64,000 bases of DNA from Croceicoccus mobilis (GCF_001661965.1 NZ_LYWZ01000017.1:1-64000); one strand, 5' to 3'; counted from the stretch's first letter, positions 3,335-60,096 are shown. Numbers and translations are program-made. The notes: generated from the sequence alone by a model not told the origin.

Positions 3335-3348
3335 GTACGCTGGCTAAC
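3335..3348. promoter_or_regulatory. Regulon palindrome, site 1
   Basis: GTACGCTGGCTAAC, 73 bp before the SDR start at 3262 and within the divergent promoter region shared with the lipoyl/E2 genes. Confidence 0.6.
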
Positions 3349-3376
3349 CTTATGGCTTGGCGCGGTCAAGAATAAA

Positions 3377-3390
3377 GTATGCATGGTCAC
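3377..3390. promoter_or_regulatory. Regulon palindrome, site 2 (weak right half)
   Basis: GTATGCATGGTCAC, 42 bp from site 1 (about four helical turns). The left half matches well and the right half is degenerate. Confidence 0.45.
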
Positions 3391-3434
3391 CTTCATGCTG
3401 GCGGCGATTGCCTTTCTGCGTGTTGACGGATACC

Positions 3435-3448
3435 GTAAGCTAGCGTAT
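3435..3448. promoter_or_regulatory. Regulon palindrome, site 3
   Basis: GTAAGCTAGCGTAT, flanked by GATACC on the left. It is the copy nearest the lipoyl-domain gene at 3564. Confidence 0.6.
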
Positions 3449-3563
3449 CGAATCCGGGAAACGCCCATCGAGGGCACGCCGCACGATGCGCCGGACGGGC
3501 GGAAACGTGACGGGGAACGGAGAGATTCTGGCCAGTGGGCCGGTGCTGAAGAGGAATTGCGAC

Positions 3564-3794
3564 ATGGCGACTGAAGTGGTGCTCCCCAAGCTCGGCTTTT
3601 CGATGAATGAGGGCACTTTGGCCGAATGGCTGGTGGCCGATGGCGGCGCGGTGACAGAAGGCGAGCCGCTGTTCGCGCTGGAAAGCGACAAGTCGACGCA
3701 AGAGGTCGAGGCCCCCTGCTCGGGCACGCTCAAGATCCTGAAAGAGGTGGGCGAGACCTATCCAGTCGGCACGGTGCTGGGCGAAATTTCCTGA
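3564..3794 (+). CDS. Stand-alone lipoyl (biotinyl-lipoyl) domain protein
   Basis: The start is the ATG at 3564 with GAGGA 8 bp upstream, giving 76 residues. This is a single lipoyl domain: VVLPKLGFSMNEGTL, then LESDKSTQEVEAPCSG with the attachment lysine K43, then GETYPVGTVLGEI. It would carry a lipoyl group as the swinging arm of a 2-oxoacid dehydrogenase-type complex. The stop codon overlaps the start of the E2 catalytic domain gene by one base (TGATG), so the two together form an E2 split into separate chains. No E1, E3 or lipoylation gene is in the window. A biotin-carrier role is less likely because the usual MKM context is missing. Confidence 0.85.
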   Translation: MATEVVLPKLGFSMNEGTLAEWLVADGGAVTEGEPLFALESDKSTQEVEAPCSGTLKILKEVGETYPVGTVLGEIS

Positions 3795-8180: not shown

Positions 8181-8942
8181 TCAGAACTGGATGCGCTTGG
8201 TGTAACCGCCGTCGATGACGAGGTTCGCGCCGATGATATATTTCGCCGCCGGGCTGGAGAGGAAAACGATGCCTGGTGCCACATCCTCGGGCGAACCCAT
8301 CCGGTTGCCGAGCGGGATCTGCCCCTCGATGCCCTCGACCAGCTCGGGCATCACGGCCTTTACCCCGTCCCAATTGCCGCCGGGATAGCAGATCGGGCCG
8401 GGCGAAACGCAGTTGACGCGAATACCCTTGGGCGCGAGGGCCTGCGACAATTGCGAGGCATAGGTGATAAGCGCGCCCTTGATCGCGTTAAATGCTTGCG
8501 GGACGAGGAAGGTCTCGACGGCGGCGGTGCTCGACATCATCACGATGGAGCCGGCATCGGATTTCTCCAGATAAGGCTCAAGCGCCTCGACCGCGTCGAC
8601 CGCGCCCAGCATGTCGATGCGAAAGCTTTCCTCCCAGTCCTGAGCGCCATTCGCGCCCGAAGAGCTGATCGAGTGGATGAAGATGTCGCAGCCGCCCAGC
8701 TCGTCGGCAAGGCCTGCCAGCATCGCCTTGTATTCTTCGCGGTCGTCCAGCACGAATTCGCGCGTCACATATTTGCCGCCCTTGCCTGCAAAGCCCGAAG
8801 CCAGCTCGTCCAGCGCCTCGCCATTTCTTGAAAACATGCCGATGTCGCAGCCCTCGGCCGCAAACAGCTTGACCGCTTCCTTGCTGAGACCGCGCGTCGC
8901 GCCGCCGATGATGACCTTCTTACCCTTAAGACCAAGATCCAT
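8181..8942 (-). CDS. SDR-family protein lacking the catalytic tyrosine
   Basis: The protein is 253 residues and starts MDLGLKGKKVIIGGATRGLSKEA after a GGGAGTAAGAA ribosome site. It has the SDR fold pattern and a typical C-terminal end (GANLVIDGGYTKR), but several signature residues differ. The glycine motif ends in Ser (GGATRGLS). NNAG is replaced by HSIS (about 90-93). The YxxxK motif reads FNAIK, with Phe at 151 and Lys at 155. Ser at 137/138 is kept. It is the first gene of the SDR-Rieske-P450 operon. It may bind NAD(P) without normal dehydrogenase chemistry, act as another kind of reductase, or be a non-catalytic partner. Confidence 0.85.
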   Translation of the reverse strand: MDLGLKGKKVIIGGATRGLSKEAVKLFAAEGCDIGMFSRNGEALDELASGFAGKGGKYVTREFVLDDREEYKAMLAGLADELGGCDIFIHSISSSGANGAQDWEESFRIDMLGAVDAVEALEPYLEKSDAGSIVMMSSTAAVETFLVPQAFNAIKGALITYASQLSQALAPKGIRVNCVSPGPICYPGGNWDGVKAVMPELVEGIEGQIPLGNRMGSPEDVAPGIVFLSSPAAKYIIGANLVIDGGYTKRIQF

Positions 8943-9119
8943 TTCTTACTCCCATGTCGCGAACGGCCCGTCCCGGACCGCAGCAATTGATCGGTCAGGC
9001 GGCGCGATGGGAACGGCTCCTCCCGCAAGTCCAGCTGCAAGCCCGACCCACGGTAATCACCTCTCCTCCTGCACGCACCGGCCGGAGCCTGTGCTCGATT
9101 TTCTATCTTATCGGAGATA

Positions 9120-9133
9120 GTATGCACGCATAT
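9120..9133. promoter_or_regulatory. Regulon palindrome, site 4
   Basis: GTATGCACGCATAT, a near-perfect dyad in the 265-bp divergent region between the SDR-Rieske-P450 operon (start 8942) and the crotonase (start 9208). On the minus strand it overlaps a possible promoter, TTGTCG at 9142-9147 and TACTAT at 9118-9123 with 18 bp between. Confidence 0.65.
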
Positions 9134-9207
9134 CTTTTTCGCGACAAGGGCAATTGTACGCTTCCTTTCGAATGGCGGGAGGCAAGGGCCCGCCATGGGG
9201 AACGAGG

Positions 9208-9957
9208 ATGGAATGGGATGTTCAGCATGTCCGGGCCGAGCGCCGGGAAGTACCGGGCGGCGTGCTTGAAGTGGTGCTCGACCGCGCGGCCAGTCGCAAT
9301 GCGATGACAACCGTGATGGTCGCCGAAATTCTCGCGATCCTCGACACGGATGAAGCGGTCGCGGCAGGCGCCATCGTGTTGAGCGGCGGCGGACGCGGCT
9401 TTTGCGCCGGAAGCGATCTGGCAGCGCTGGCCGCCATGACCGCGGGCGAACGCAGCCGGTTCGAGGCCGATTGCGGCACGCTGGCGCGCAGGATCGTCGC
9501 GTACCCCCGGCCGGTTGTGTGCGCGGTCCATGGGTTTGCGATTGGCGGCGGCCTGACTTTGGCGGCAGCCTGCGACATCGTGGTCAGCAGCCCGGATGCG
9601 AAATGGAGCCTGCCCGAAGTGCCGATCGGCCTCTTCCCGGCCTGGGGACTGGAGGGCGTCACGACAAGGGCAGGGATCGTCGCCGCCCGCCGCCTGTCCT
9701 TTGGCATCGACATTCTGTCGGGCGCCGATGCCCATGCCTGCGGGCTGGTTGATCGACTGGCCGACGATCCGGTCGCGGCCGCCCGCGACATCGCGGCGCA
9801 GCTCGCCGGTCTGCCCCATGCGCAATGCAGCTTCGTTAAGGAGTATTTCGCCGTTCCACGCCGGGGCGAGGAAGCGGACCGCCACGCCAATCGCCTGTTC
9901 ACCGCATCCTGCGCGACGGACGAAGCGGAAGCCGGTTTCAAGCGATTCGTACGCTAG
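9208..9957 (+). CDS. Enoyl-CoA hydratase/isomerase (crotonase) family protein
   Basis: The start is ATG 9208 (MEWDVQHVRAERREV) with GGGGA 6 bp upstream, giving 249 residues. Crotonase features are the oxyanion-hole segment GGGRGFCAGSDLAALA and HGFAIGGGLTLAAACDIVV. Of the two classical acid/base glutamates, the first (in GGGxE) is Thr here, while the second is kept in SLPEVPIG. It is therefore likely an isomerase or another crotonase reaction rather than a standard hydratase. The stop codon lies inside operator site 5. The next gene (kinase at 10058) has its own promoter region but may also be read through from here. Confidence 0.85.
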   Translation: MEWDVQHVRAERREVPGGVLEVVLDRAASRNAMTTVMVAEILAILDTDEAVAAGAIVLSGGGRGFCAGSDLAALAAMTAGERSRFEADCGTLARRIVAYPRPVVCAVHGFAIGGGLTLAAACDIVVSSPDAKWSLPEVPIGLFPAWGLEGVTTRAGIVAARRLSFGIDILSGADAHACGLVDRLADDPVAAARDIAAQLAGLPHAQCSFVKEYFAVPRRGEEADRHANRLFTASCATDEAEAGFKRFVR

Positions 9958-9962
9958 CTATT
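9949..9962. promoter_or_regulatory. Regulon palindrome, site 5
   Basis: GTACGCTAGCTATT. It covers the crotonase stop codon and touches the putative -35 box at 9961-9966. Confidence 0.65.
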
Positions 9963-9990
9963 GACTTGGCTAATGCAGGCTTCTTAAACT
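9961..9990 (+). promoter_or_regulatory. Putative sigma-70 type promoter for the kinase operon
   Basis: TTGACT (9961-9966) and TAAACT (9985-9990) are separated by 18 bp, about 70 bp before the start codon at 10058. The two palindromes flank it: site 5 overlaps the -35 edge and site 6 lies over the expected transcription start, a layout typical of repression. Confidence 0.5.
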
Positions 9991-9991
9991 A

Positions 9992-10005
9992 GTACGCAAG
10001 CTATC
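9992..10005. promoter_or_regulatory. Regulon palindrome, site 6
   Basis: GTACGCAAGCTATC, 43 bp downstream of site 5 (about four helical turns) and 53 bp before the kinase start codon. Confidence 0.65.
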
Positions 10006-10057
10006 AAAGTAGCTGCGGGAGTCGCCGGTTCAGGCGCCGCCGAATTGGGAGACGCCG

Positions 10058-11230
10058 ATGGAGACCGATGCCGCGCGCATCCGCGATCTTTTCGCAACCG
10101 AGGTGCATGAAGCGGCCGTGACCAAGGCCGAGCAGGTGCCGCCATCCTATGGTGCCATCACGCTGGAATGGCTGAACGACGTCTTGTGCCGTGATCGAGG
10201 CGATGTGCGCGTCACCGAATTCTCCTTTGACGAGCGCGATGACGGCTCGTCCAACAGGCGGCGGATCTGGCTTGGCTATAACGCCGTGGGGCAGGACGCC
10301 GATCTGCCCTCCAGCGTCTTTTGCAAGGCTGCGGAATCGCTGGAAAACCGCATTGTGCTGGGTGTCTCCGATACGGCGCGGGCAGAGGCCGATTTCTATC
10401 GCCTCGTCCAGCCCAGCCTTTCGATACCGACTCCGCAGGCCCGCTATGCCCGGTTCGACCCGGCCAATTTCGCCTATCTGATCATGATGGACGACATGGC
10501 GCACGACGTGCGCTTTCCCGATGAGCGCCACATGATAAGCCGCGACCAGGCCGAACAGATGGTGGCAACACTGGCAAGCCTGCACAGCCAGTTTTACCAG
10601 AGCCCGGAGCTTGGAACGAGCGCTCTGCCCTTCAAGACCTGGCCGGTCTGGTGGGCCGGGATGATGCGCGGATCGCTCGATTTTCCCGATTTCTGCGACA
10701 TGGGTTTCGAATGTATTGCCCCGCGCCTTCCCGCAGCTCTGGTCAGCCGCCGCGCCGATGTCTGGCCCGCGACGATGGCTTCGGTCGCGCGGCACGAACA
10801 TTTGCCCCACACGCTGATCCACAGCGACGTCCATCTCAAGAACTGGTTCATCGCAGGTGACGGGCGGATGGGTTTGCACGACTGGCAACTGACCACCATC
10901 GGCCATTGGTCGCGCGACTTCGCCTTTGCCCTGACCAGCGCGCTGACCGTCGATCAGCGCCGCAACTGGTTCGAGGATCTGCTCAGGCTCTATCTCGAAG
11001 AAATGGCGGCAAGCGGTGCAGGGCCAATCGATTACGACGATGCCTTTCGCAATGTTCGCGAACAGCTGATGACGGTGTTCGCCTTCTGGACAATCACCAT
11101 GTGCCCGACCGGCGACATGCCCGCCATGCAGCCCGAGCGCACCACCACCGAATTCCTCATTCGCATGGGCACCGCGATCGACGATTACGGATCTATCGAC
11201 TCGCTGCTCAATTCGGAGACTCCGGCATGA
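10058..11230 (+). CDS. CHK/ecdysteroid-kinase-like phosphotransferase
   Basis: The protein is 390 residues, starting at ATG 10058 with GGGAGA upstream. The kinase fold is complete: SSNRRRIWLGYN (nucleotide loop), likely ATP lysine K90 (VFCKAAE), catalytic loop LIHSDVHLKNWF (H255, D257) and metal-binding Asp in LHDWQL (D275). The DVHLKNW form resembles eukaryotic CHK/ecdysteroid kinases that phosphorylate steroid or small-molecule alcohols. A close paralogue lies at 25390-26559. It is coupled to the SnoaL gene (ATGA overlap). Its probable role is phosphorylation of a hydroxylated pathway intermediate; the substrate is not determined. Confidence 0.88.
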   Translation: METDAARIRDLFATEVHEAAVTKAEQVPPSYGAITLEWLNDVLCRDRGDVRVTEFSFDERDDGSSNRRRIWLGYNAVGQDADLPSSVFCKAAESLENRIVLGVSDTARAEADFYRLVQPSLSIPTPQARYARFDPANFAYLIMMDDMAHDVRFPDERHMISRDQAEQMVATLASLHSQFYQSPELGTSALPFKTWPVWWAGMMRGSLDFPDFCDMGFECIAPRLPAALVSRRADVWPATMASVARHEHLPHTLIHSDVHLKNWFIAGDGRMGLHDWQLTTIGHWSRDFAFALTSALTVDQRRNWFEDLLRLYLEEMAASGAGPIDYDDAFRNVREQLMTVFAFWTITMCPTGDMPAMQPERTTTEFLIRMGTAIDDYGSIDSLLNSETPA

Positions 11231-11667
11231 GCAATGACGTTCAGGCGATCCGCCTCCTCAAGGCTCGCTATTTCCGCTTTATCGACGAAAAACGCTGGGA
11301 TGAGCTCAATGGCTTGTTCACCCGCGACCTCGTCTTCGACGTGCGCGGCGGCATGGCGCCGAGCACGCTGGCCGACAGCTATGACGACCCCCCGATCCAG
11401 GGCGCCGACGCGGCTGTCGCTTTCCTGCGCAAGGCGCTGGACCCGGCGATTTCCATCCACCAGGGCTTCATGCCCGAGATCGAGATCACCGGTCTCAAAT
11501 GCGCGCGCGGGATCTGGGCGATGTCCGATATCATCCGCGCCCCCGAAGGCGGCCCCTACCGAGAGATCAGGGGCCATGGCCATTACCACGAAACCTACCG
11601 CAAATGCAGCGGCGTCTGGCACATCGCGAAGCTGCGCCTGACGCGGCTGGCCGTCGACATCACCTGA
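11227..11667 (+). CDS. SnoaL-like (NTF2 fold) protein, group A
   Basis: The protein is 146 residues; its ATG overlaps the kinase stop codon. It starts MSNDVQAIRLLKARYFRFID and ends GHGHYHETYRKCSGVWHIAKLRLTRL, the cone-shaped alpha/beta-barrel pattern of NTF2/SnoaL proteins (isomerases, dehydratases, or binding proteins). It is most similar in this window to 38746-39198: both have LKARYFR, a GHMPEIEI-like strand and GHYHETY near the end. It is part of the operon 10058-14273 with the kinase and the lipocalin-like gene. Function unknown; a dehydratase or isomerase on a cyclic intermediate is plausible. Confidence 0.82.
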   Translation: MSNDVQAIRLLKARYFRFIDEKRWDELNGLFTRDLVFDVRGGMAPSTLADSYDDPPIQGADAAVAFLRKALDPAISIHQGFMPEIEITGLKCARGIWAMSDIIRAPEGGPYREIRGHGHYHETYRKCSGVWHIAKLRLTRLAVDIT

Positions 11668-11685
11668 TTAGCCGAAAGACCAGAC

Positions 11686-12693
11686 ATGCCCAACGTCCCC
11701 GTCAACGATTACCCGTGGGAAGGCCCCTTCCCCGACACGCCCAACTGGAGCGAAAATTTCCTGCTAGCCGGGCAGGACCCAAAAGCCGGGGTCGGTTTCT
11801 GGATGCATTGCGGGCGCTGGAGGAAGGACCTCGACATGTTCCGCGAGACCGTGGTGGTGCGCCTGCCCGACGGCACGGTCGCGGCATCGCGCGCGATCGG
11901 CAATGCCAATTCGGCCAAGGATGGCCCCGGCGGCCCCCATTACGCGATCCGTATCGTCGAACCGGGGGCAAGGCTCACTTATCGCTACAATGGCGGCATC
12001 CGCCGCGTGCCGTCGGCGGGCATGAAGACCGCGCTGGTCCCCGAAGGCCCGCGTACGCCGATGAAGATCGATCTGGCCTTTGCATCCGACGCCGATGTCT
12101 GGGACCTGCACAAGGTCGGCGGATCGCAGGATTTCCTGCCCGCAGGCCATATCGAACAGATCGGCCGTGTTACCGGCATCATCCGCGTGGGCGATGACGC
12201 GTATGACATCGACACCATCGCCAATCGCGACCATTCGCTCGGCCCGCGCGACAACAAGGACCTGATGAACCACCAATGGCATCAGGGCTATTTCGAGAAC
12301 GGGATCAGCTTCCTGCTGTTCGACGCCATGACGCGAAGCGACGGCAAGGTCGTGTTCTCCGAAGCCGCCGTCTATGAAGGCGACAGGCTTTACGAGGCCG
12401 AGCTGGAACTGCCGTGGCGCTGCGACGATGCCGCGCGCGACCATGATCCGGTGCGCTTCAAGCTCCATTACGCCAATGGCACGCTCGATATCGAGACGAC
12501 GGAGTATCAGACCGATTCCTACCTGTCGCTAACCTCGCCCAACGATCAATATGTCGGCGTCTATCCGACCGAGGGCGATACGCCGACACTGGTGCTGGCC
12601 GAGCAGTCGGTCGGGCTGATGCTGAACGGTTCGGTCCCCGGTTACGGCTGCTTCGAGCGCACGATTAACGGCCACGTCGAACCCGAGGCATGA
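11686..12693 (+). CDS. Lipocalin-like protein (AttH/CrtC type), function unknown
   Basis: The protein is 335 residues, with no signal peptide and no membrane segment. The sequence is rich in beta strands and has two halves. The second contains HIEQIGRVTGIIRVG and ANRDHSLGPRDNKDL, the RDHSxGxRD signature I associate with AttH/CrtC-like double-lipocalin proteins. These bind or hydrate hydrophobic molecules (the carotenoid 1,2-hydratase CrtC is the best-known member). It sits 18 bp after the SnoaL gene and 8 bp before the TetR gene. It might carry or hydrate a hydrophobic intermediate; this is inference only. Confidence 0.65.
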   Translation: MPNVPVNDYPWEGPFPDTPNWSENFLLAGQDPKAGVGFWMHCGRWRKDLDMFRETVVVRLPDGTVAASRAIGNANSAKDGPGGPHYAIRIVEPGARLTYRYNGGIRRVPSAGMKTALVPEGPRTPMKIDLAFASDADVWDLHKVGGSQDFLPAGHIEQIGRVTGIIRVGDDAYDIDTIANRDHSLGPRDNKDLMNHQWHQGYFENGISFLLFDAMTRSDGKVVFSEAAVYEGDRLYEAELELPWRCDDAARDHDPVRFKLHYANGTLDIETTEYQTDSYLSLTSPNDQYVGVYPTEGDTPTLVLAEQSVGLMLNGSVPGYGCFERTINGHVEPEA

Positions 12694-12700
12694 GCGTTCC

Positions 12701-13405
12701 GTGACGCTCCCCTTCTCTCCGCCCGAGTTGCCCGAGGCGAAGATGCGCCTGCTGGTGGAGGCCGAGCGGGCGTTTGGCGAACATGGCATCGCCAATGCCT
12801 CGCTGCGGGAGATTTCGGAACGGGCGGGGCATCGCAACCGGTCTGCGGTGCAATATCATTTCGGCGATCGTGACGGCTTGGTCGTCGCGCTTCTGCAAAT
12901 GCGGCGTCCGCAGGTGGACAAGATCCGCGCGGGCTTCTTTGCCGCGCTCGGCCTCGACATAGGGAGCAGCCCCAGTGAGGTTCTGGTCGAGGCGATCGCC
13001 GGACCCCTGCTCTTCAGCGAGTTGCGCAGCCGGCTGCAGCCCTATGCCCGGACGGTTCACGCCCTGCTGCAATATGATGTCGATGGCGAACTTTGGCGAC
13101 AGACCGGCGATGCCGCGCCGCTGACCCGGTCGATCTATGCCGCGCTGCGCCTGCGGGGCCGGGGGATGGACGATGCCGAATGGCGCATGCGGCAGCTCGC
13201 CTTTGGCAGGTGCTGCGTCGATCTGGCCGCACATCGCGGCGCGATTTTTCCCGGTGGCACGATGGCCGATCAGCAACTGGCGGCAAAACTGATCGACATG
13301 CTGTGCGCGATGCTGCTGGCCCCCGCCACGGCCCAGCCGACACCCGCCCGGACGAACTGTACGATCTGGCGGACGATCGGTCGTATCGAGAATCTCGTGA
13401 CCTAG
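12701..13405 (+). CDS. TetR/AcrR-family transcriptional regulator
   Basis: The start is GTG 12701; an ATG at 12743 is an alternative with better Shine-Dalgarno spacing. The protein is 234 residues. The N-terminal helix-turn-helix is clear: LVEAERAFGEHGIANASLREISERAGHRNRSAVQYHFGDRDGLV (about 17-62). The C-terminal ligand domain is divergent, with a long tail rich in Pro and Arg. It lies inside the operon transcribed from the promoter bracketed by palindrome sites 5 and 6, so it could autoregulate through them. It is one of two TetR-type candidates for the window-wide palindrome, the other being at 49133. Confidence 0.85.
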   Translation: MTLPFSPPELPEAKMRLLVEAERAFGEHGIANASLREISERAGHRNRSAVQYHFGDRDGLVVALLQMRRPQVDKIRAGFFAALGLDIGSSPSEVLVEAIAGPLLFSELRSRLQPYARTVHALLQYDVDGELWRQTGDAAPLTRSIYAALRLRGRGMDDAEWRMRQLAFGRCCVDLAAHRGAIFPGGTMADQQLAAKLIDMLCAMLLAPATAQPTPARTNCTIWRTIGRIENLVT

Positions 13406-13478
13406 GTTACCATATGCATCGAAAGGCCCCGAACCGCGCACGAACGGATAGACGGCAGGGGCCGGAGAAGGAGTCGAA

Positions 13479-21584: not shown

Positions 21585-21591
21585 AATACGG

Positions 21592-21605
21592 TATTCTAGA
21601 GTACG
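21592..21605. promoter_or_regulatory. Regulon palindrome, site 7
   Basis: GTATTCTAGAGTAC, one of the most symmetrical copies, directly after the receptor stop codon and 74 bp before the acyl-CoA dehydrogenase start. Confidence 0.6.
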
Positions 21606-21678
21606 ATATCGGAGTTCGCGGCGCCCCGTGCGGTCCCGCGGCTCCGGCATCAGAGGATCGCTGAAAAGGAACACACCC

Positions 21679-30925: not shown

Positions 30926-30926
30926 G

Positions 30927-40429: not shown

Positions 40430-40469
40430 GCTCTCCTGTCCGCTGGGCCGGTCGCTGCCGGGCCAATTA

Positions 40470-40483: not shown

Positions 40484-40542
40484 TATATCGTGGTTATGAG
40501 CATGGCAACGGCCAAGAAAGCCGAAGCGAGAGGACGAAAAGC

Positions 40543-43352: not shown

Positions 43353-43425
43353 TATCCTCGCTCTCCCATGCTGCGGCTCCATGCTGCAATAAATGCTGCG
43401 TCATTGCGCTTGCCGCCACGAGAAA

Positions 43426-43439
43426 GGATGCTAGCATAT
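43426..43439. promoter_or_regulatory. Regulon palindrome, site 17
   Basis: GGATGCTAGCATAT; the inner ATGC-TA-GCAT is a perfect dyad. It is 54 bp before the VOC start and 74 bp before the SDR start. Confidence 0.55.
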
Positions 43440-43492
43440 TATCCTGACGGTGCCAGCCAATGCTGCCGCGAAAATATATCAAGGAGAGAACG

Positions 43493-44476: not shown

Positions 44477-45809
44477 AATCCTCGGCCCTCACGCCCGAAC
44501 CCTTCGGCTGCGGGCGGAAACCGGCGATATAGCGGTCGATCATCTCGTGATATTGCGCCACCCGGCGTTCCTGGTTGGCAAGAATTGCCCCCCCATAGCC
44601 GCGTGAGCGCATGCCCTCCTGCTGCCCCGCCATGACCCACGCATCGCCGTCGAGCACCACGCCAAGGCTCTTGTCGCCATATTCGACGATCTCGCGCTCG
44701 GCATGGCCGGCGCGCGGGCCATCGGCGGTGACCAGTTCGGTGTTCGCATTGGCCCCGCCAAAGGAATAGTACCAGCAATCGAACAGGCATTTTTCCGGAT
44801 CGGTCCGGTCGGGTATCGCGCGCAGGAACAGCATTCCGTCGGGATTGAGCGAGGTCGCGAAATTCGGGAAGACCGTGTAGTGGAACACGTCGGTCAGCTG
44901 CTCGTCGCTCATCGCGTCATAGTAATGCAGGCCGCGTCCCGCGCCCAGCTTCCGCTTCTGCTGCTGGATCGCTTCGCGCGCATCGCGTTCACGGCCGATG
45001 AAGTCGGCCGGATCGAGTTCCCACGCGATCAGATCGGCCTCGATAGGCTTGGTCATGCGCGGCTTGCCGGGGGGCAGGCGGTGGGCGGGCAGGCAGCATT
45101 TGGTCTGGCCCAACGCATGCCCGTTTTCATACAGCTCCAGCCGGGTTTCGCTGAAGTGGTCCTCGGCATATTCGATGCCTTCGGGATGGGCGGTGGGCAG
45201 GTGATAGGTCTCATGGAAATTATCCATGAGCAGCTTCCAGTTGCACGGCATGTTGACCGACATCGCCTGAATGCGCGTCATGTGCTCCAGCGGATAGGCC
45301 TGCCACTCGTCCCGGATCGGCCCCAGCGAATCGGCCAGCGATGCGCAGTCGGGATCCATGTTGATCCACACGAAGCCCGAAAACACCTCACAGGCCACCT
45401 CGACCAGTCCGGCGCGCGGGCAGGGATCGCCGCCGGCAAAATCCTCCGGGTCCTGCGCATAGCTGCACCGACCGTCCAGCTCGAAGCGCCATGAATGATA
45501 GGCGCAGGTAAAGGCCGGCATCGACCCTTCCTCGACATGGACAAGCTTGTTCCCCCGGTGCTGGCAGACATTGTAGAATGCCTTTACCCCGCCGTCTTCC
45601 TGACGCACGATCAGGATGGACTCGGGACCGATCTGCTCCAGCATGAAATCGCCAGCCTCGGCAATATCGTCGGCGCGGATGGTGACGAGCCAGCTTTTCG
45701 TCCAGACATTGTCCCATTCCGCCTGCATGAAAGCGCGCGAAGTATAGCGCTCTCCGGCAAGCGGGCGTGCCCTGCCCTGCATGACGTTCCCGGTGGCTTC
45801 GTGGCCCAT
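44466..45809 (-). CDS. Rieske non-haem iron oxygenase, large subunit
   Basis: The protein is 447 residues, with GGAGA 5 bp before ATG 45809. Rieske ligands C82, H84 (CQHRG), C102, H105 (CAYHSW). Mononuclear iron site NFHETYHLPTAHPE (H203, H208). The internal part (AIQQQKRKLGAGRGLHYYDAMSDEQLTD) resembles the one at 6670, so these two form a subgroup distinct from 32600 and 55228. No small subunit or electron-transfer gene is adjacent. It is coupled to the downstream VOC gene, a pairing that fits hydroxylation followed by rearrangement. Confidence 0.92.
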   Translation of the reverse strand: MGHEATGNVMQGRARPLAGERYTSRAFMQAEWDNVWTKSWLVTIRADDIAEAGDFMLEQIGPESILIVRQEDGGVKAFYNVCQHRGNKLVHVEEGSMPAFTCAYHSWRFELDGRCSYAQDPEDFAGGDPCPRAGLVEVACEVFSGFVWINMDPDCASLADSLGPIRDEWQAYPLEHMTRIQAMSVNMPCNWKLLMDNFHETYHLPTAHPEGIEYAEDHFSETRLELYENGHALGQTKCCLPAHRLPPGKPRMTKPIEADLIAWELDPADFIGRERDAREAIQQQKRKLGAGRGLHYYDAMSDEQLTDVFHYTVFPNFATSLNPDGMLFLRAIPDRTDPEKCLFDCWYYSFGGANANTELVTADGPRAGHAEREIVEYGDKSLGVVLDGDAWVMAGQQEGMRSRGYGGAILANQERRVAQYHEMIDRYIAGFRPQPKGSGVRAEDCAA

Positions 45810-45865
45810 CTCGATCTCCTACCCAAGCGATTTCACCGGTCTGTTCATGCCGGTTGCGGATAATC

Positions 45866-45879
45866 GTATATTAGATTAC
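45866..45879. promoter_or_regulatory. Regulon palindrome, site 18
   Basis: GTATATTAGATTAC between the divergent Rieske (57 bp) and TIM-barrel (46 bp) genes. The outer GTA/TAC arms match and the inner GC is lost. Confidence 0.45.
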
Positions 45880-45924
45880 GATCTGCGGCAATCGCCCTTT
45901 GAGAGCGAAATCGGGAGAGAGATT

Positions 45925-46840: not shown

Positions 46841-48268
46841 ATGACGATGTCGGCATATCTGTGGTCGACCGCCCGCGACCTGCGCGCGGTGGTGATGCCC
46901 GCAATCGAGGATGCAGCGGTGCGCGAAACGCTGCACAACGGGCTTCGCATCATCACCTGGATCGCCAATGCGCTGGAAGCTGACGCCCCCGATGGCACGA
47001 CCGCTCCGGGCGGAACCGGGGCCATCGCCGATACCGACCGGCTTGGCGGACCGCCGGAAAACGCGGCGGCTTGGCGTGGCAGCGGCGTGGCCATCGCGGC
47101 TTGCGCAAACCGGCTCGACACCGCCGAAGAGGGCGCGCTTGGCGTCGAGGCCGCCGCCATCGCGTGGGAAAAAGCCGCGCTGGACCAGGCCATCGCGCGG
47201 GTCGATGCCATCGAATACGGCACCGTTCAGGCAGACGGGGACGGACCGGGCCATGCTATCCGCCTCGCTCCCTTGCAGGAGTATCTGCAGCGTCGTTTCG
47301 GTGCGCCAAATCTTGCCATCACCTCTTTCAAGCCGATCCATGGCGGCCGGTCCCGACAAACCGCGCTATTCGGAATAGAGGGCTGCGCCACCCTCCCGCG
47401 CGAGATGGTCGTACAGCGCGGGCTGCCCGGCGGCGGGGCGGGCCCCGGCTTCATCGGCGAGGCGGTCCAGTTCGACCTGATCCAGGACCTGCTTGCCGCA
47501 GGGCTACGGGTGCCGACCCCCGTGCTGGTGGAAACCGAAGACCCGGCACTGGGCGCACCCTTCATGGTGGTGGAACGCGCCCGGGGCACCTGCTGCGAAC
47601 CCGATTTCTGGCTCGCGCCCGGCGATCGCTCGATCGTCCTCGACCTCGCGCGGGAAATGGCGCTGCTTCACCGGCACGATCCGGGCCGCCTCGGCACGCT
47701 GCTGCCGCAGGCGCGCAAGGCATGGGACGAAGCGGGCTGGCTTGCCGAACTCGACGATCTGGCAAGGGGATGGCACGCGGCCTGCCACTGGCCATCGGTC
47801 ACTATGTCGGCAGCCATCGCGTGGATGCGGGCCAATGCCGCCTGCATTAAGGACCGGCGCGGCCTCGTCCACAATGATTTCCTGTTCCACAACATCATGG
47901 CGGAAAACGGTCGCATTACCGGCGTGCTCGACTGGGAAATGACGTCCATCGGCCATCCGGGCGAGGATCTGGGCTATGCCTATCCGCTGATCAGCGGCAC
48001 CGGCCATTGGGATGCATTCCTCAAAACCTATCGCGACGAGGGCGGGGCCGAAGTCTCCCAGCGCGAAATCGACTATTTCGCCCTGCGCGCGGGGTTGCGG
48101 TTGATGAACATGGTCATGGCAGGCGGGCGCGACATCTTTGAAAGTGGCACCGCTGACGGTGTGCTGCCCGCCAGCGCGGGCGCACATTTCAGCCAGCGAT
48201 TGCTGCACCGCATCGCGGGCGTGCTGCAGGAAGTGCTGGCCCGGGACGCGGAACGCATCGCCGCCTAG
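46841..48268 (+). CDS. APH-like phosphotransferase with extra N-terminal helical domain
   Basis: The protein is 475 residues, about 110 longer than a plain APH-like kinase. Residues 1-125 are helical (SAYLWSTARDLRAVVMPAIED, RETLHNGLRIITWIANALEAD) and look like the separate small protein at 920-1255. The kinase part follows: FKPIHGGRSRQTALF (about 163-177), catalytic loop GLVHNDFLFHNIMAE (H344, D346, N351), and LDWEMTSIGHPGEDLGYAYP (D364). All kinase residues are present, unlike 1260-2348. APH-like kinases with a small partner phosphorylate gamma-hydroxyacyl-CoA in the levulinate pathway; a comparable role is inferred. The stop overlaps the SnoaL gene by 4 bp. Confidence 0.85.
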   Translation: MTMSAYLWSTARDLRAVVMPAIEDAAVRETLHNGLRIITWIANALEADAPDGTTAPGGTGAIADTDRLGGPPENAAAWRGSGVAIAACANRLDTAEEGALGVEAAAIAWEKAALDQAIARVDAIEYGTVQADGDGPGHAIRLAPLQEYLQRRFGAPNLAITSFKPIHGGRSRQTALFGIEGCATLPREMVVQRGLPGGGAGPGFIGEAVQFDLIQDLLAAGLRVPTPVLVETEDPALGAPFMVVERARGTCCEPDFWLAPGDRSIVLDLAREMALLHRHDPGRLGTLLPQARKAWDEAGWLAELDDLARGWHAACHWPSVTMSAAIAWMRANAACIKDRRGLVHNDFLFHNIMAENGRITGVLDWEMTSIGHPGEDLGYAYPLISGTGHWDAFLKTYRDEGGAEVSQREIDYFALRAGLRLMNMVMAGGRDIFESGTADGVLPASAGAHFSQRLLHRIAGVLQEVLARDAERIAA

Positions 48269-48792
48269 CGCACCAGCAGTTCATAGCTGCGGTCGCCGGG
48301 TTTCCTGCTGCCCGGCACTGCCTGCATGCCGAACGGCAGCTGCGACCAGTCCGCCGAATCGGGATATTCGCGCAGCCAGTCGAGGATAACGACGCGGTGC
48401 CCGATCTTCCACACGCCGCCGCGCCGCTCGAACCGATCCAGGTAGCGCCCTGCCACGATCAGGTCCCAGCGGCTGCCGTCTTCGCGCGGGATGCGGTGAA
48501 AGGCATGGAAATAGGATTCGCCGCGCGCATCTGCACCATCGACGTCGATCAATATGTTGCCCAGATTGTGCATCGTCTGATCCAGCGGGCCGAGCGCGGC
48601 CACGACATGCTCGACGAATTCCTCTCCCGTCCCTTCAAAGCCGACGTGTTCGTCGATCGCCCCGGGCCAATAGACGGACCGCAGCAGATCCTCGTCCAGC
48701 CGGTCGATGGCGCGGCAATAGCGATAGAGGCAGTCGCGGATCGCCTCGCGGTCGGCCAGTTCTTCGGCGAATTGTTCTCTCGACTTGTCCAT
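48265..48792 (-). CDS. SnoaL-like (NTF2 fold) protein, group B
   Basis: The protein is 175 residues. MDKSREQFAEELADREAIRD, then CLYRYCRAIDRLDEDLLRSVYWPGAIDEHVGFEG and YLDRFERRGGVWKIGHR, the same signature as 36585 and 37102. Asp and His in AIDEHVG are conserved candidates for catalysis. It is convergent with the kinase gene (4 bp overlap) and divergent from the small ORF/TetR unit. Reaction unknown; dehydratase or isomerase likely. Confidence 0.83.
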   Translation of the reverse strand: MDKSREQFAEELADREAIRDCLYRYCRAIDRLDEDLLRSVYWPGAIDEHVGFEGTGEEFVEHVVAALGPLDQTMHNLGNILIDVDGADARGESYFHAFHRIPREDGSRWDLIVAGRYLDRFERRGGVWKIGHRVVILDWLREYPDSADWSQLPFGMQAVPGSRKPGDRSYELLVR

Positions 48793-48878
48793 GATCGCTC
48801 TTCTCCCTGTATTGCTTGCGTTTTTCTTTGTGCCTTGCGCCGTTGCCCGAACCCGGGCGAGGTGATATGCATAATTTC

Positions 48879-48892
48879 GTTAGCGAACGTAC
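48879..48892. promoter_or_regulatory. Regulon palindrome, site 19
   Basis: GTTAGCGAACGTAC, 42 bp before the small ORF at 48934 and 241 bp before the TetR start. It is the only copy directly upstream of a regulator gene with no other annotated enzyme gene between. Confidence 0.55.
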
Positions 48893-48933
48893 GACCAAGA
48901 GATACGTCGCGACGGAAAGAGGAGCCCCAAGGG

Positions 48934-49132: not shown

Positions 49133-49900
49133 ATGCTGGAAACGTCTGCAAACCTCGTTGGCACGCTCAACGCCAATGCCGCCTGCGTTCTCGATCATGC
49201 CGGTTCGATTTCCGTCCTGCGCCCCGCCGCGACCGGCGGGCGCCTGGCCCAGCGGCAGCGGCGCGAAAGCATTTTGGCGACCGCCCGGGAAATGATCGGC
49301 AGAAACGGATATGAACGGCTCGTGCTGCGCGAAGTGGCCGACATGTGCGGGGTTTCGGTGCAGACCGTCTATAATCTGGTCGGCGACCGCTCCAACGTGC
49401 TGGCCTCCGCCGTTACCGAGTTCATCGAGGTCGCGTTCCAGCATTCCAGCCATTTCAGCGATTTTCCCAATCGCTTCCTCGCCGTGGCGCATGTCTATTG
49501 GGCGACGGCTGCGAACAGCCCGGAATATGTGCGCGAAGCGACGCTCGCTTATTATTCGACCCAGTCGCAATATCGCGAACAGGTGAGTGGCGCGGCCATC
49601 CGCATTTTCGTCGATGCGCTGATCGCCATGAAGCGGCAGGGCCAGTTGCGCGCCGATCTCGACCTGCGCAGCGTCGCCCATCGTTTCGCTCAGCTTGCCG
49701 CAGCCGACGTGTTCGACTGGGCGAGCGGGGCGCGCAGCATCGAACGGCTGCGTCTCGATCTACTCGACAGCCATGCGATGATCCTCGAACACGCGCTGGT
49801 CCCGGCAGAGGCCGCGCGGGTGCGCGACTGGATCGCGAGGCAGCACGATATCGACCTGCGCGCGGCACGCGCATCGCAGGACGCTGCACAGGCCGCTTGA
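49133..49900 (+). CDS. TetR/AcrR-family transcriptional regulator
   Basis: The protein is 255 residues, with GAGGGAGAG just before the ATG. An unusually long N-terminal arm of about 38 residues precedes the DNA-binding domain: RLAQRQRRESILATAREMIGRNGYERLVLREVADMCGVSVQTVYNLVGDRSNVLA (about 37-91), with a typical TetR recognition helix. The C-terminal helical domain should bind a small-molecule or CoA-ester inducer. It is transcribed from a region with palindrome site 19, the pattern of an autoregulated TetR repressor, which makes it my first candidate for the factor that reads the window-wide palindrome. That link is inference. Confidence 0.88.
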   Translation: MLETSANLVGTLNANAACVLDHAGSISVLRPAATGGRLAQRQRRESILATAREMIGRNGYERLVLREVADMCGVSVQTVYNLVGDRSNVLASAVTEFIEVAFQHSSHFSDFPNRFLAVAHVYWATAANSPEYVREATLAYYSTQSQYREQVSGAAIRIFVDALIAMKRQGQLRADLDLRSVAHRFAQLAAADVFDWASGARSIERLRLDLLDSHAMILEHALVPAEAARVRDWIARQHDIDLRAARASQDAAQAA

Positions 49901-57415: not shown

Positions 57416-57416
57416 G

Positions 57417-58100
57417 TCACCGGCCTCCGGTGTTGAAGAGAATACGCCGGGTTTCCTCGTCGAAATCCTGCGGCGGGTCGACCGTGATGTCGGCCATGAC
57501 CCGCCGGACCGCCGGCCGTGCGCCGATCGCGGCGAACCAGCGCGCGACATTGGGATAATCGGACAGCGCGGTCACGTGGTGTGCGCGGAACAGCAGCCAC
57601 GGCCAGCAGGCGATATCCGCCACCGAATATTCGCCTGCCAGAAAGTCGCGATGCGCCAGGGCCGTATCGAGCACGCGGTAGAGGCGCGCGACCTCGCGGC
57701 TGAACCGCGCGATGGCATAGGGAAGCCTTTCGGGCGCGTAGTTGAGGAAATGGCCCGCCTGCCCCAGCATGGGCCCTTGTCCGCTCATCTGCCACATAAG
57801 CCAGGCGTGGGCCGCGCTGCGCGCCCGCACCGATGCCGGGACCAGCGCGCCGCCCTTTTCGGCAAGATAAAGGAGGATCGCGCCAGATTCGAACACCGAC
57901 AGCGGTTCGCCGCCGTCCGCTGGGTCGTCGTCGACGATCGCAGGGATGCGATTATTGGGGCTGATCGCCAGGAATTCGGGCGAGAACTGTTCCCCCGCCA
58001 TGATGTCGAGCGGCTCGCGGCGATAGGCGATGCCCAGCTCCTCCATGCCGATCAGCGCCTTGATGACATTGGGGGAATCCCCGCCATAAATCGAAATCAT
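57417..58100 (-). CDS. Glutathione S-transferase (YghU/YfcG-like)
   Basis: The start is ATG 58100 (MISIYGGDSPNVIKALIGMEELGI) with GAGGGG upstream, giving 227 residues. It has DSPNVIKAL, PLDIMAGEQFSPEFLAISPNNRIPAIVDDD and FESGAILLYLAEKGG (glutathione-binding segment), then FLAGEYSVADIACWPWL in the helical domain. The SPN/GEQ...FLAISPNNRIP pattern is the Nu-class disulfide-bond oxidoreductase type; sphingomonad beta-etherases are also GSTs but differ. It is the first of two linked GST genes. Confidence 0.87.
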   Translation of the reverse strand: MISIYGGDSPNVIKALIGMEELGIAYRREPLDIMAGEQFSPEFLAISPNNRIPAIVDDDPADGGEPLSVFESGAILLYLAEKGGALVPASVRARSAAHAWLMWQMSGQGPMLGQAGHFLNYAPERLPYAIARFSREVARLYRVLDTALAHRDFLAGEYSVADIACWPWLLFRAHHVTALSDYPNVARWFAAIGARPAVRRVMADITVDPPQDFDEETRRILFNTGGR

Positions 58101-58396
58101 GTTGCGCCCCTCAAATCCATAGTGCCGCGTCTGCGCCAGCATTGCGCAAAGCGGCCATGCGGGGGCACCATGTGCGGGAGGAAACCCTTGATGGCGGGGC
58201 CAGATGATCCATTCTTTGGGCTGGAACTGTCGGTGCCATGGCGTGGATGCCGGCTATCGCCTCGCTCAAGGGAGATCTGCCATGTCCCGCTCTGTGCCCG
58301 AGCTAATCGCTTGATGCCGCGCGGCGCCGCCACAATGGCGCAAGGACCGCGCTGCACCGGGCGGGCGCGGCTATGGCCTGCCCCGCCCTTCTTGCG
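58101..58396. other. Gap of about 300 bp with no recognisable gene
   Basis: Between the GST start (58100) and the VOC stop (58397) I see no gene, hairpin or copy of the regulon palindrome. Short open frames exist on both strands but none has a ribosome site or a recognisable family. It presumably holds the GST promoter. Confidence 0.5.
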
Positions 58397-58951
58397 TCAT
58401 AGCGCGAAGGCCCTGATCGGATCGCTGCCATCCCAGCCGCCGGCCGCCTCGGCCACGGTCTTGCTGAGAAGGTCGCTGACGGGCGTGCGGTCGACGAGTT
58501 CGATCATGCAGCCATGGGTCGCGCGCATGTCGACATAGGCCGTGCGCGATCCTGCGATTTCCATATAGGTGGCGGCACCATCGACCGTGACGCCAAGACT
58601 GCGCATCCCTTCGTCGAAGCCGCCAAAGGCGCGGCAGACGTGATGAAACCCGCTCTGCCCCGCAGGCACGCCGTCGCGGTAGGCCGACGGCCCCTCGCTG
58701 TTCTGCCGGATCAGTTCGAGCTGGCAAGGCCCCGCCTGCGCCAGCGCGATGCTGAAGGCGAGCGGCACGCGGCGCCCGCGATACAGCGCGTCGGGCACTT
58801 CGAGGTCGAAACGGAAGAACGGCCCGATCCCCAGCGCCAGCCAGCTTTTCATCGCCTGGTCGAGATCGTCCACCACCCAGGCCGTCTGGACCAGCGGAAA
58901 CGCGCTGTACCCGATGGCGGCGGCCGGGGGCGGTGTCACTGTCTGGTCCAT
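58397..58951 (-). CDS. VOC (glyoxalase/dioxygenase fold) protein with WDGSDPIR tail
   Basis: The start is ATG 58951 (MDQTVTPPPAAAIGYSAFP) with GGAG 6 bp upstream, giving 184 residues. Modules: PLVQTAWVVDDLDQAMKSWLALGIGPFFRF and GFHHVCRAFGGFDEGMRSLGV, metal candidates His (FHHVC) and Glu (CMIELVD). It ends EAAGGWDGSDPIRAFAL, the same tail as 40543 and the right-edge gene. Its 5' end overlaps the broken SDR gene at 58936. Reaction unknown. Confidence 0.83.
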   Translation of the reverse strand: MDQTVTPPPAAAIGYSAFPLVQTAWVVDDLDQAMKSWLALGIGPFFRFDLEVPDALYRGRRVPLAFSIALAQAGPCQLELIRQNSEGPSAYRDGVPAGQSGFHHVCRAFGGFDEGMRSLGVTVDGAATYMEIAGSRTAYVDMRATHGCMIELVDRTPVSDLLSKTVAEAAGGWDGSDPIRAFAL

Positions 58952-59196
58952 GCCATTCTCCAATCTTCCCTGTCGCCGGTGTCCATGTGATGGAACCGGG
59001 CGCCATGCGCATGGGCGATCTCCGGCCCATGGGCATCGTCTATATCGACCGCAACGACCTTCGCTCCTTCGCCGGCAAGCCGCTCGACGACCGCGGCACC
59101 TATGCCCGAGGCCGCGCCGGTCACGATCGCGACGCGCCCTTCGGAACGGCGGCAGCCGCCGCGCATGGCGGTTTCTTCCCTCGCTTGACCGCTCAT
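58936..59196 (-). pseudogene. SDR gene fragment (N-terminal third only)
   Basis: The frame begins ATG 59196 (overlapping the stop of the VOC gene at 59193) and encodes 86 residues: RVAIVTGAASGIGAAVVERLAGEGAKVVAVDIDD, then HHMDTGDREDW. This is a normal SDR Rossmann start with an Asp for NAD. The sequence then runs into the ribosome site and start of the VOC gene and stops at 58936. The NNAG, Ser, Tyr and Lys parts are missing, so a deletion fused the SDR remnant to the next gene. It cannot be an active SDR. Confidence 0.82.
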
Positions 59197-59681
59197 TTCG
59201 CGGTTCCCGGCAAATGTCGCATGTGCATCGGGTGCGACGGCTTCAGCACCTCCTGTATCTCGACCACATTGCCGTCGGGATCGCGCCCATAGGTTGCGGC
59301 CAGCCCCTGTTCGCGGTCGAACAGCGGGGGCCGGTGAAAGCGCATGCCCGCCGCCGACAGCCGCTCGTATTCAGCCTCGATATCGACGACATCGAGGCAG
59401 AAGTGGGTATAGCCATGATCGCATACCGGTCGGTCGGGGTCGCCCGGGCGCGGAGGGGGCGAGGAATATTCGAAGATCTCGAGGTGGAGGTCCCCCGCCT
59501 TCAGCATCGCCTGCCGCGCGGCGGAATCCTTTAGCGCCAGCACCTCGTCGATAAGCGGGTTTCCCCGGTCCCATCCCCCGGTCCAGCCGATCTGCTCAAA
59601 ACCCAGAACATCGGTATAGAACCCGACGAGCCGATCGAGATCGGGGGTGGAGACGGCCACGTGATGCAGTCCGCGTATCAT
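59193..59681 (-). CDS. VOC (glyoxalase fold) protein
   Basis: The protein is 162 residues, with GGGGG before ATG 59681. IRGLHHVAVSTPDLDRLVGFYTDVLGFEQ and YTHFCLDVVDIEAEYERLSAAGMRF, then YGRDPDGNVVEIQEVLKP, with His, His and Glu metal ligands in standard positions. It resembles lactoylglutathione lyase/dioxygenase-superfamily members common in sphingomonad catabolic operons. It is the first gene of a minus unit with the SDR fragment and the VOC at 58397. Confidence 0.85.
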   Translation of the reverse strand: MIRGLHHVAVSTPDLDRLVGFYTDVLGFEQIGWTGGWDRGNPLIDEVLALKDSAARQAMLKAGDLHLEIFEYSSPPPRPGDPDRPVCDHGYTHFCLDVVDIEAEYERLSAAGMRFHRPPLFDREQGLAATYGRDPDGNVVEIQEVLKPSHPMHMRHLPGTAK

Positions 59682-60096
59682 GCTGTGCCCCCGATCCTCT
59701 TAAGGCGAACCTGTCCCGGTCGCTTCCTGCCTGCCGACCGGTCAACGCCATTTCGGCTCCGGCGGTGGAAGGCGGCAGAATATGGCCGCCTCGCAGCGCG
59801 GCAACGCTCAAGTCTGGACAGATCGCCCCAATCACCAAAGCGCAAGAGCGCCCTTATCTCAGCTGTCGGTCCGCACGCGGACCGGGCTTCCGGGCCTATT
59901 TCTTTAAGCTTTGGCCCGACTGTCGAAACATGCCGACCTTATCCGCTGCGAAATCTTGTTCGCTGACGTACGAAAGCGGGGTGACCGGCCTTGGCGCCGA
60001 CCCGCAAAGCGGGCGAAAGCGGGACCGGGCTAACGGGAATCGGCGACACAGCCGAGCAGGCGGAGCGAAATCCGCAACGGGAGTGGGAGGTAATCC
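59682..60096. promoter_or_regulatory. 415-bp divergent promoter region of VOC and TonB receptor genes
   Basis: No gene is supported here; the short open frames lack ribosome sites and family resemblance. It contains palindrome site 20 at 59958, GC-rich repeats of GCGGGCGAAAGCGGG character around 60008-60022, and the receptor ribosome site GGGAGG just before 60097. A long leader of more than 100 bases for the receptor is implied if transcription starts near site 20. Confidence 0.5.
59958..59971. promoter_or_regulatory. Regulon palindrome, site 20
   Basis: GTTCGCTGACGTAC, 126 bp before the TonB receptor start at 60097. Confidence 0.55.

Follow-up and report, generated by a model that had tools for sequence, protein, structure and literature searches.

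Which protein reads the palindrome that recurs before the genes of a catabolic cluster in Croceicoccus mobilis, and how far does the gene set that it marks extend? The stretch analysed, called the window here, is 64,000 nucleotides long (GCF_001661965.1, NZ_LYWZ01000017.1:1-64000) and forms bases 1-64000 of the 150,499-bp contig C9, in an assembly of 4.2 Mb and 32 contigs. A preliminary description had listed 20 copies of a 14-bp palindrome (GTAYGC-NN-GCNTAC) in 16 promoter regions of the window and had proposed a homodimeric TetR-type factor as its reader. Our results point to another protein, MarR3, whose gene lies at contig positions 112,628-113,143 on the minus strand, with a probable TTG start at 113,143. 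With a probability of about 0.82, the palindrome is the operator of this autoregulated, SlyA-like MarR repressor, and the genes behind it form a regulon for the acyl-CoA-type catabolism of steroid- or terpenoid-like compounds.

Reading the sequence at each position showed that all 20 listed sites are present; the one at 21592 exists and is one base out of register, its symmetric 14-mer beginning at 21591. Only three of the 20 come within one mismatch of GTAYGCNNGCRTAC. The motif finding that had been proposed for the listed intergenic regions was performed as palindromic expectation-maximisation (EM) with 31 promoter-bearing intergenic regions (6,086 bp), all from the window, as input, and it both recovered the motif and lengthened it from 14 to 24-28 bp (ATATcGTAtGCTAGCaTACgATAT). 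Even widths were favoured, and odd-width palindromes (15-25 bp) were rejected for their poorer fit than the adjacent even widths. The de novo 24-bp palindrome ATATcGTAtGCtaGCaTACgATAT contains the 14-mer as its core, and the real motif is longer and looser than GTAYGC-NN-GCNTAC. The matrix refined on the whole contig holds 18.5 bits. Its strongest pair is T7/A18, followed by A1/T24, G6/C19, A8/T17, T4/A21, and C11/G14; the information in the outermost A/T pair is close to that of most positions in the core, and conservation is slight outside 24-26 bp, where flanking positions carry about 0.2 bits or less. The 20 sites scored 15.4-27.8 with the 24-bp matrix, to which they themselves contributed, and 10.7-26.0 with a matrix derived from other organisms alone. 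The strong site at 13392-13415 (22.8), the doublet partner at 27381 (13.7), and two doubtful sites at 41717 (11.4) and 53210 (11.0) had been missed, and the window count becomes 22 sites scoring at least 13 in 17 promoter regions. These results confirm the palindrome in promoters, in a larger form than was first described.

The distribution of the sites was then evaluated on the whole contig, using a home-made gene finder that gives approximate gene starts and ends. At a score of at least 14, C9 holds 45 non-coding sites and no coding site when 15 and 25 bp are taken off the gene ends; with untrimmed calls, 43 lie outside genes and two (9944 and 13392) overlap the last bases of a gene. At the same threshold, 100 column-permuted palindromes gave a non-coding mean of 0.4 and a maximum of 3. 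A matrix trained on the window found 18 non-coding and no coding sites of at least 14 in the held-out other 86 kb of C9 (permuted control: mean 0.17, maximum 1), and a matrix made from foreign sequences only located, at this score, 17 sites inside the window and another 19 on the rest of C9, none of them coding. At a score of at least 13, C9 carries 50 sites in 34 promoter regions, 23 of them divergent, and simple rules (gene start within 320 bp of a site, gaps under 60 bp) assign to them 57 operons with 90 genes, the operon number being a rule-of-thumb count. Between 2 and 127 kb of C9, 117 genes were called, and one of the 34 site regions lies at 134 kb. The regulon covers about twice the length of the window, and the cluster spans roughly 120 kb.

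Sites on the other contigs are few. Half of the 16 places in the genome that fit the 14-mer with at most one mismatch are on C9, which is 3.6% of the genome, and all but one of the ten matches of a sequence-only Infernal model (R1) at E<=10 are on C9, the other being on contig C6. In 385,312 bp of nine other contigs, seven places reached a score of 14 and two of these reached 20; nine of the 20 sampled stretches had been picked for holding a 14-mer or model match, so this sample leans towards hits, and we used its totals alone, as genes are under-called on the 20-kb fragments and the coding/non-coding split is unreliable there. The two highest-scoring places stand before genes named by Pfam. 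About 14 bp separate C6:18224 from the etfB gene of an etfBA pair, and the distance from C17:118573 to a gene for ETF-ubiquinone oxidoreductase (ETF-QO) is 41 bp. ETF and ETF-QO accept electrons from acyl-CoA dehydrogenases, so both make functional sense as targets. We also observed ETF-QO copies, 99.5-100% identical, at the ends of C9 (148855-150489), C6, and C17 (L007:11468-13102; L008:10633-12200); these three contig ends are probably where the assembly broke.

To find the reader, we compared six regulator genes of C9, namely two TetR (12701 and 49133), three MarR (MarR1 at 41091, MarR2 at 73944, and MarR3 at 112628), and one AraC gene (64483). The best site within 450 bp upstream scored 4.6 for TetR 12701, 18.0 for TetR 49133, 11.4 for MarR1, 21.9 for MarR2, 21.5 for MarR3, and 14.5 for AraC. 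Strong sites stand before several of these genes, so own-promoter sites alone do not decide between them. MarR3 has two such sites, at 113278 (21.5) and 113354 (19.5). It matches the Pfam models MarR_2 (7.7e-12) and MarR (3.3e-11), and a profile of MarR3 and six relatives matched 103 sequences in the PDB, the best 60 of which are MarR/SlyA-type or unnamed transcriptional regulators. The structure predicted for the Rhizorhapis ortholog, which is 51% identical to MarR3, has a pLDDT of 87.9 and forms a winged helix that includes both the recognition helix and the beta-wing, with MepR-DNA (4lln), SlyA (including SlyA-DNA, 3q5f), and MarR as its top Foldseek matches.

Searches in other genomes linked the palindrome to MarR3 relatives. 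Model R1 matched 12 of 249 family genomes at E<=2, this genome included; in four of the 11 foreign loci (L034, L036, L038, and L042) the site lies directly upstream of a marR-like gene, and two loci (in genomes G087 and G024) have catabolic surroundings. The R1 matches in G242, G198, G205, and G064, which by eye are not beside marR or obvious catabolic genes, may be chance, and in 20 kb of G205 that one site alone reaches 11. With E-values near 1, R1 was too weak for relatives and was set aside. With the MarR3 protein as query, 58 of 298 family genomes gave a match at E<=1e-20, headed by G087 (51% identity), G024 (two copies, 45% and 43%), and then G222. In G087 two site pairs flank the ortholog, and its neighbourhood, judged by eye, includes genes for a TonB receptor, a CoA ligase, and an oxidoreductase similar to one on C9. 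Sites scoring at least 13 number seven in 39 kb of G087, 17 in 80 kb of G222, 13 in 60 kb of G010, and 20 in 120 kb of G024, none of the last three sets being coding, and in all four genomes the site clusters show similar gene sets beside the MarR3 orthologs. A site of at least 13 was found within 450 bp upstream in 13 of 30 MarR3-homolog loci, or 12 of 29 without this genome's own.

In a scan of 84,980 species genomes, 284 MarR3 relatives were confirmed and the best 80 kept; the titles of these best 80 of the 284 name Alpha-, Beta-, and Gammaproteobacteria. For 70 non-redundant orthologs, none of them from this genome, EM on the preceding 320 bp returned ATATgGTAtGCTAGCaTACcATAT, which correlates with the C9 matrix at r=0.92, and 36 of the 70 upstream regions contain a site of at least 13 (permuted mean 1.4, maximum 7). 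In the best 80 of the 284 ortholog loci (1.42 Mb, near-duplicates included), 337 sites reached 13 (permuted mean 21.5, maximum 84), with at least one site in 71 loci and at least two in 60. Judged by sequence comparison, the palindrome tracks MarR3 orthologs and not TetR genes, and the whole cluster is probably switched by a single regulator.

The sites also show a particular layout. An offset of exactly 15 bp recurs in 60 pairs among the 398 sites that score at least 12 in C9, in 39 named loci, and in stretches from four relatives; the second most frequent offset within 60 bp accounts for five pairs. This is 0.15 pairs per site, against 0.0034 for matrix-sampled sites in random flanks, and the paired palindromes share their A/T arms. 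Because the 39 loci were picked for holding sites, because overlapping or near-identical Sphingobium loci are among them, and because C9 itself has only three pairs (27381/27396, 30907/30922, and 77857/77872), the 60 doublets are neither an unbiased nor a wholly independent set. MepR also loads two dimers on some operators. For sites of at least 15 in five genomes, the median distance from the operator centre to the start codon that follows is 70 bp among pairs no more than 200 bp apart, and 78 of 107 pairs of site and gene have a divergent arrangement. Well-fitting predicted -10 boxes number 81, and 40 of these begin between -10 and +5 as measured from the centre of the operator. TTGA/TTGC words occur 85 times upstream, at -52 to -20, and 21 times in the mirrored interval; the boxes are uncontrolled guesses from the consensus, and their placement is suggestive only.

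The following mechanism would fit these observations. A MarR3 dimer most likely reads the core GTA-y-GC..GC-r-TAC through its two recognition helices, with the wings probably in contact with the outer A/T-rich arms. Once bound, it would most likely block RNA polymerase at one or two promoters at once; given operators about 70 bp before starts, at the expected place of -10 and spacer elements, and many of them between divergent genes, occlusion of the polymerase is the simplest outcome. MarR3 would also sit at its own promoter and so regulate itself. A compound of the pathway, which may be the hydrophobic substrate or a CoA thioester, would free the protein from the DNA and thereby switch on about 57 operons together with etfBA and the ETF-QO gene. 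At doublets, two dimers would be placed about 1.4 helical turns apart on nearly opposite faces of the DNA, where they would probably bind cooperatively.

Other explanations were weighed against this reading. That the palindromes are chance occurrences or a dispersed repeat family instead of operators has a negligible likelihood. The genome scan that had been suggested as a check came out in two ways: it showed the site-rich cluster on C9, against seven places of at least 14 in the 385-kb sample of other contigs, and it showed no genome-wide over-representation of the bare 14-mer, whose 16 places compare with 50 for the pattern read backward. The latter would suit chance or a repeat and weakens the case for an operator; against it stand the confinement to non-coding DNA, the permuted controls, the recovery of sites in held-out and foreign sequences, and the roughly 0.2 bits or less carried by positions beyond the 24 bp. 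The earlier assignment to a TetR homodimer (12701 or 49133) is very unlikely, although a homodimeric one-component factor does fit the dyad. Both TetR genes are in the cluster, 12701 within the operon behind sites 9944 and 9987, and site 48874 (18.0) is upstream of 49133, either as its target or for the divergent neighbour. The TetR repressor EdcR of Caenibius likewise has a 24-bp palindrome (PMC8700777), but its operator TnnCnnTACnAnTnGTAnnGnnA carries TAC and GTA in reverse order. No foreign homolog locus of TetR 12701 (0 of 29) or TetR 49133 (0 of 6) has a site of at least 13 within 450 bp upstream, against 12 of 29 for MarR3 homologs. These scans covered 29 of 30 foreign matches of TetR 12701, all six of TetR 49133, and 30 loci of MarR3 matches (one per locus), with thresholds of 1e-20 for the MarR3 query and 1e-12 for the others. 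The TetR homologs are distant (23-48% identity, often in the DNA-binding domain only), so this control is weaker than the EM test on ortholog upstream regions. Furthermore, the site-cluster genomes G024 and G087 have no match to TetR 49133 at E<=1e-12, three of 199 genomes being matched, and their matches to TetR 12701 are weak and on other contigs; G087 was present in the equal-sized genome draws of the parallel searches.

It is also improbable that MarR1 or MarR2, two MarR paralogs seen in this genome alone, reads the sites here, whether by itself or competing with MarR3. Both are MarR proteins encoded in the cluster that could share its sites, and MarR2 has a strong site, 74557 (21.9), 95 bp upstream. 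Against this, they are 24% and 20% identical to MarR3, respectively, with different recognition helices, and 199 family genomes held no match outside this genome above 39% (MarR1) or 32% (MarR2) identity. The same sign accompanies MarR3 orthologs in other genomes, and the best G087 match of MarR1 is the MarR3 ortholog itself. The 16 matches of the MarR1 query, five of them with a site, are partly genes also found with MarR3 (in G087, G140, and G065) and make no clean control; the single foreign match of MarR2 was left out of the locus scan. An activating or anti-silencing role of MarR3, like that of SlyA against H-NS, in place of simple repression is conceivable though unlikely. SlyA is among its closest solved relatives, and the E. 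coli protein activates by antagonising H-NS (PMC5797941), but the sites here lie at or downstream of the predicted -35 and -10 boxes, near start codons, and many stand between divergent genes. As separate observations, the cluster contains three MarR genes (41091-41573 in the window; L002:9944-10462; L004:8628-9143), and MarR1 and MarR2 are 41-42% identical to each other, with no match above 39% elsewhere in 199 family genomes.

Several results weigh against MarR3 as the reader or limit what can be said of it. Its gene is outside the window, 49 kb beyond the end. No site of at least 13 occurs in 34 of the 70 ortholog upstream regions, and nine of the 80 ortholog loci lack any site. Seven homologs at 44-48% identity (G082, G163, G100, G303, G048, G106, and G213) have no such site in their 3-kb loci, and these seven are closer to MarR3 than the site-rich G010 homolog at 38%. 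In 20-kb stretches, two of G106 and one each of G100, G048, and G213, the sites of at least 13 numbered 0, 1, 1, 3, and 2. R1 matched none of 13 other genomes of the genus, G010 included; since the matrix finds 13 sites in G010, the R1 search is insensitive. The T/A-rich arms of the operator resemble a -10 box and favour a -10 match there. The substrate class is deduced from enzyme families only.

Several loci of homologs with few or no sites carry a related sign. In 22 low-motif loci, GTAAAC-NN-GTTTAC was found at 13 places with at most one mismatch and the main core at none, while in 18 high-motif loci the counts were 0 and 8; the GTAAAC pattern was picked after it had been seen in earlier homolog-locus matches. 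Fifteen proteins with only the sister sign were compared by eye with 22 of the main group: RM replaces RL after the recognition helix in nine of the former and in none of the latter, and the wing DRR is replaced by DAR or DGR in ten of the former, with DGR in one of the latter. The alignment columns with the clearest separation of the two operator groups are for the most part N-terminal and poorly aligned. From these sequences, it looks like a specificity split within one MarR lineage, recognised after the fact. In loci L197, L201, L212, L213, L216, L221, L229, and L230, we also observed the sister palindrome (at most two mismatches) 2.2-2.35 kb upstream of the marR match.

Taken together, MarR3 may be a pathway-wide master switch for 57 operons and 90 genes in a 120-kb cluster and for the ETF and ETF-QO genes on other contigs, acting at 24-bp operators that are often paired at 15 bp, above all in relatives. 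Catabolic gene sets would have carried switch and operator with them across Alpha-, Beta-, and Gammaproteobacteria, a sister clade having re-specified the inner bases to GTAAAC-NN-GTTTAC. We consider the chances even that this joint reading holds in all its parts.

The site map of the window bore out the earlier view of one palindromic operator marking mostly catabolic genes, often between divergent ones. In the following, brackets after an operator give the start first listed and the score with the 24-bp matrix, and gene names are from Pfam unless noted. The operators 3330-3353 (3335; 24.3; AACTAGTACGCTGGCTAACCTTAT), 3372-3395 (3377; 19.9), and 3430-3453 (3435; 23.0) come first, the first of them between the divergent SDR gene 2363-3262(-) and a lipoyl-domain gene at 3486(+). 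Operator 9115-9138 (9120; 24.3) precedes the enoyl-CoA hydratase gene 9208(+) (ECH_1) and 8181-8942(-), SDR-like by eye. Operator 9944-9967 (9949; 17.8) overlaps the end of gene 9208-9957 and stands, with 9987-10010 (9992; 16.6), before the APH-type kinase operon 10058-13405(+), which by rule has four genes, including the TetR gene 12701-13405(+) (TetR_N). The newly found 13392-13415 (22.8) overlaps the end of this tetR and lies 63 bp before 13479(+), SDR-like by eye. Operator 21586-21609 (21592; 26.6) precedes 21679(+), which matches acyl-CoA dehydrogenase models below their cut-off, and 23728-23751 (23733; 23.3) separates 22881-23681(-) from the CoA ligase gene 23809(+) (AMP-binding). The weak 27381-27404 (13.7) is the 15-bp-offset partner of 27396-27419 (27401; 24.2), which lies between divergent genes, SDR-like by eye. 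The doublet of 30907-30930 (30912; 17.7) and 30922-30945 (30927; 17.4), also offset by 15 bp, stands between the GMC oxidoreductase gene 29217-30851(-) (GMC_oxred) and 30981(+).

Further along the window, 34073-34096 (34078; 24.2) precedes the Rieske oxygenase gene 32600-34012(-) (Rieske), 36532-36555 (36537; 27.8) precedes the acyl-CoA dehydrogenase gene 35285-36502(-) (Acyl-CoA_dh) and 34131-35288(-), and 37750-37773 (37755; 24.0) precedes 37102-37704(-), SnoaL-like by eye. Divergent genes flank each of the next five operators: 38688-38711 (38693; 23.3) between 37798-38595(-) and 38746(+); 40465-40488 (40470; 26.3) between the MFS gene 39170-40423(-) (MFS_1) and the VOC gene 40543(+) (Glyoxalase_4); 43421-43444 (43426; 20.8) between 42576-43352(-) and 43493(+); 45861-45884 (45866; 24.7) between the Rieske oxygenase gene 44466-45809(-) and 45976(+); and 48874-48897 (48879; 18.0) between the SnoaL_4 gene 48265-48792(-) and the TetR gene 49133-49900(+) (TetR_N), a possible target of this site. 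The last, 59953-59976 (59958; 15.4), lies 120 bp before the TonB receptor gene 60097(+) (TonB_dep_Rec). MarR1, at 41091-41573(-) (MarR_2), has just the doubtful site 41717 (11.4) upstream.

The enzymes of the cluster include Rieske oxygenases, a P450, a CoA ligase, acyl-CoA dehydrogenases, hydratases, and a flavoprotein resembling 3-ketosteroid dehydrogenase, and six TonB receptors are encoded between 19 and 117 kb of C9. As families, they point to the uptake and CoA-dependent breakdown of hydrophobic ring compounds, most likely steroid- or terpenoid-like. The P450 at 5393 is nearest to TamI and then to CYP125-type proteins. The flavoprotein at contig position 71701 is nearest to 3-oxosteroid dehydrogenases in the PDB, and in NCBIfam it matches a 4-oxocyclohexanecarboxylate dehydrogenase model far below the cut-off; none of the ten enzymes tested received an above-cut-off name from NCBIfam. 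In addition, four APH-type kinase genes lie among the catabolic genes (window 10058-11230, 25390-26559, and 46919-48268; L003:9169-10644), two of which also match an ecdysteroid-kinase-like family, and a histidine-phosphatase gene (31849-32538) is inside a regulated operon of the cluster.

Comparison with known systems places MarR3 near SlyA, PA3341 (2fbh), and MepR, with which it shares the winged-helix fold, the sequence family, and a palindromic operator. Catabolic MarR proteins are known to control one or few operons each. MarR3 would differ from the SlyA/MarR systems as one local regulator of about 57 operons, far more than these, and in its 15-bp overlapping operator pairs. A site before the regulator's own gene is a further likeness to SlyA, whose consensus is TTAGCAAGCTAA and whose own gene has its 12-mer 22 bp upstream (both PMC5797941). 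The SlyA operator reads TA-GC..GC-TA, whereas here the order is TA-n-GC..GC-n-TA with conserved outer ATAT arms; in a comparison of consensus sequences, a 12-mer like that of SlyA was not found, GTAtGCtaGCaTAC being one base longer per half. The consensus found here also seems unlike the KstR and KstR2 operators of Actinobacteria, in agreement with the preliminary description.

Caenibius tardaugens, a sphingomonad, has a 24-bp palindrome in a catabolic cluster as well. Its EdcR represses estradiol catabolism from a palindrome overlapping -10 boxes (PMC8700777). It differs in being a TetR protein that controls two operons and in its half-site order, TACnAnTnGTA against GTAnGCnnGCnTAC here; an operator like TnnCnnTACnAnTnGTAnnGnnA was not found in the consensus comparison, the half-sites being in opposite order. 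In Sphingobium sp. SHPJ-2, another relative, PheR represses the uptake and catabolism of phenanthrene, also a hydrophobic ring compound, but it is an IclR protein acting at PphnA1 with the essential core GCAACG (PMC13273656).

A further parallel is the steroidal-saponin catabolism of Sphingobium from tomato roots and tomatine soil (RC1, TomTYG74, and others), where MarR3 orthologs occur as well. Ten Tom Sphingobium strains carry orthologs (52-55% identity) on 0.9-1.0-Mb replicons listed as plasmids. In TomTYG74 (L233, plasmid pTomTYG74a), the ortholog lies beside etfAB, thiolase, MaoC, CoA ester lyase, and acyl-CoA dehydrogenase genes, with 11 sites of at least 13 in a 40-kb catabolic region of the 1-Mb replicon, and it is also found in nine other Tom strains. 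Tomatine is reported to induce steroid-degradation genes in Sphingobium; the main text of that report, as far as available, does not contain 'marr' (PMC10653915). By analogy, MarR3 orthologs in tomatine degraders fit a steroid-like substrate but do not prove it. A MarR gene, SEDNCHOL_10326, also lies in a cluster of the steroid degrader Sterolibacterium denitrificans, beside thiolase, enoyl-CoA hydratase, and acyl-CoA dehydrogenase genes, a likeness known from a figure legend alone (PMC6678751).

A literature search, which reached few subscription papers and no bioRxiv preprints, found no description of this regulon. It is unusual in size, spread, and operator layout. The protein of interest shifts from the TetR proteins to MarR3, and an orphan catabolic mega-cluster gains a candidate regulator and a searchable operator, through which members of the pathway, including ETF genes on other contigs, may be read from the DNA of many Proteobacteria. 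The substrate becomes testable as the compound that would release MarR3 from its operator. The operators that overlap at 15 bp, together with the split between GTATGC and GTAAAC, would offer a natural experiment on DNA choice by MarR proteins.

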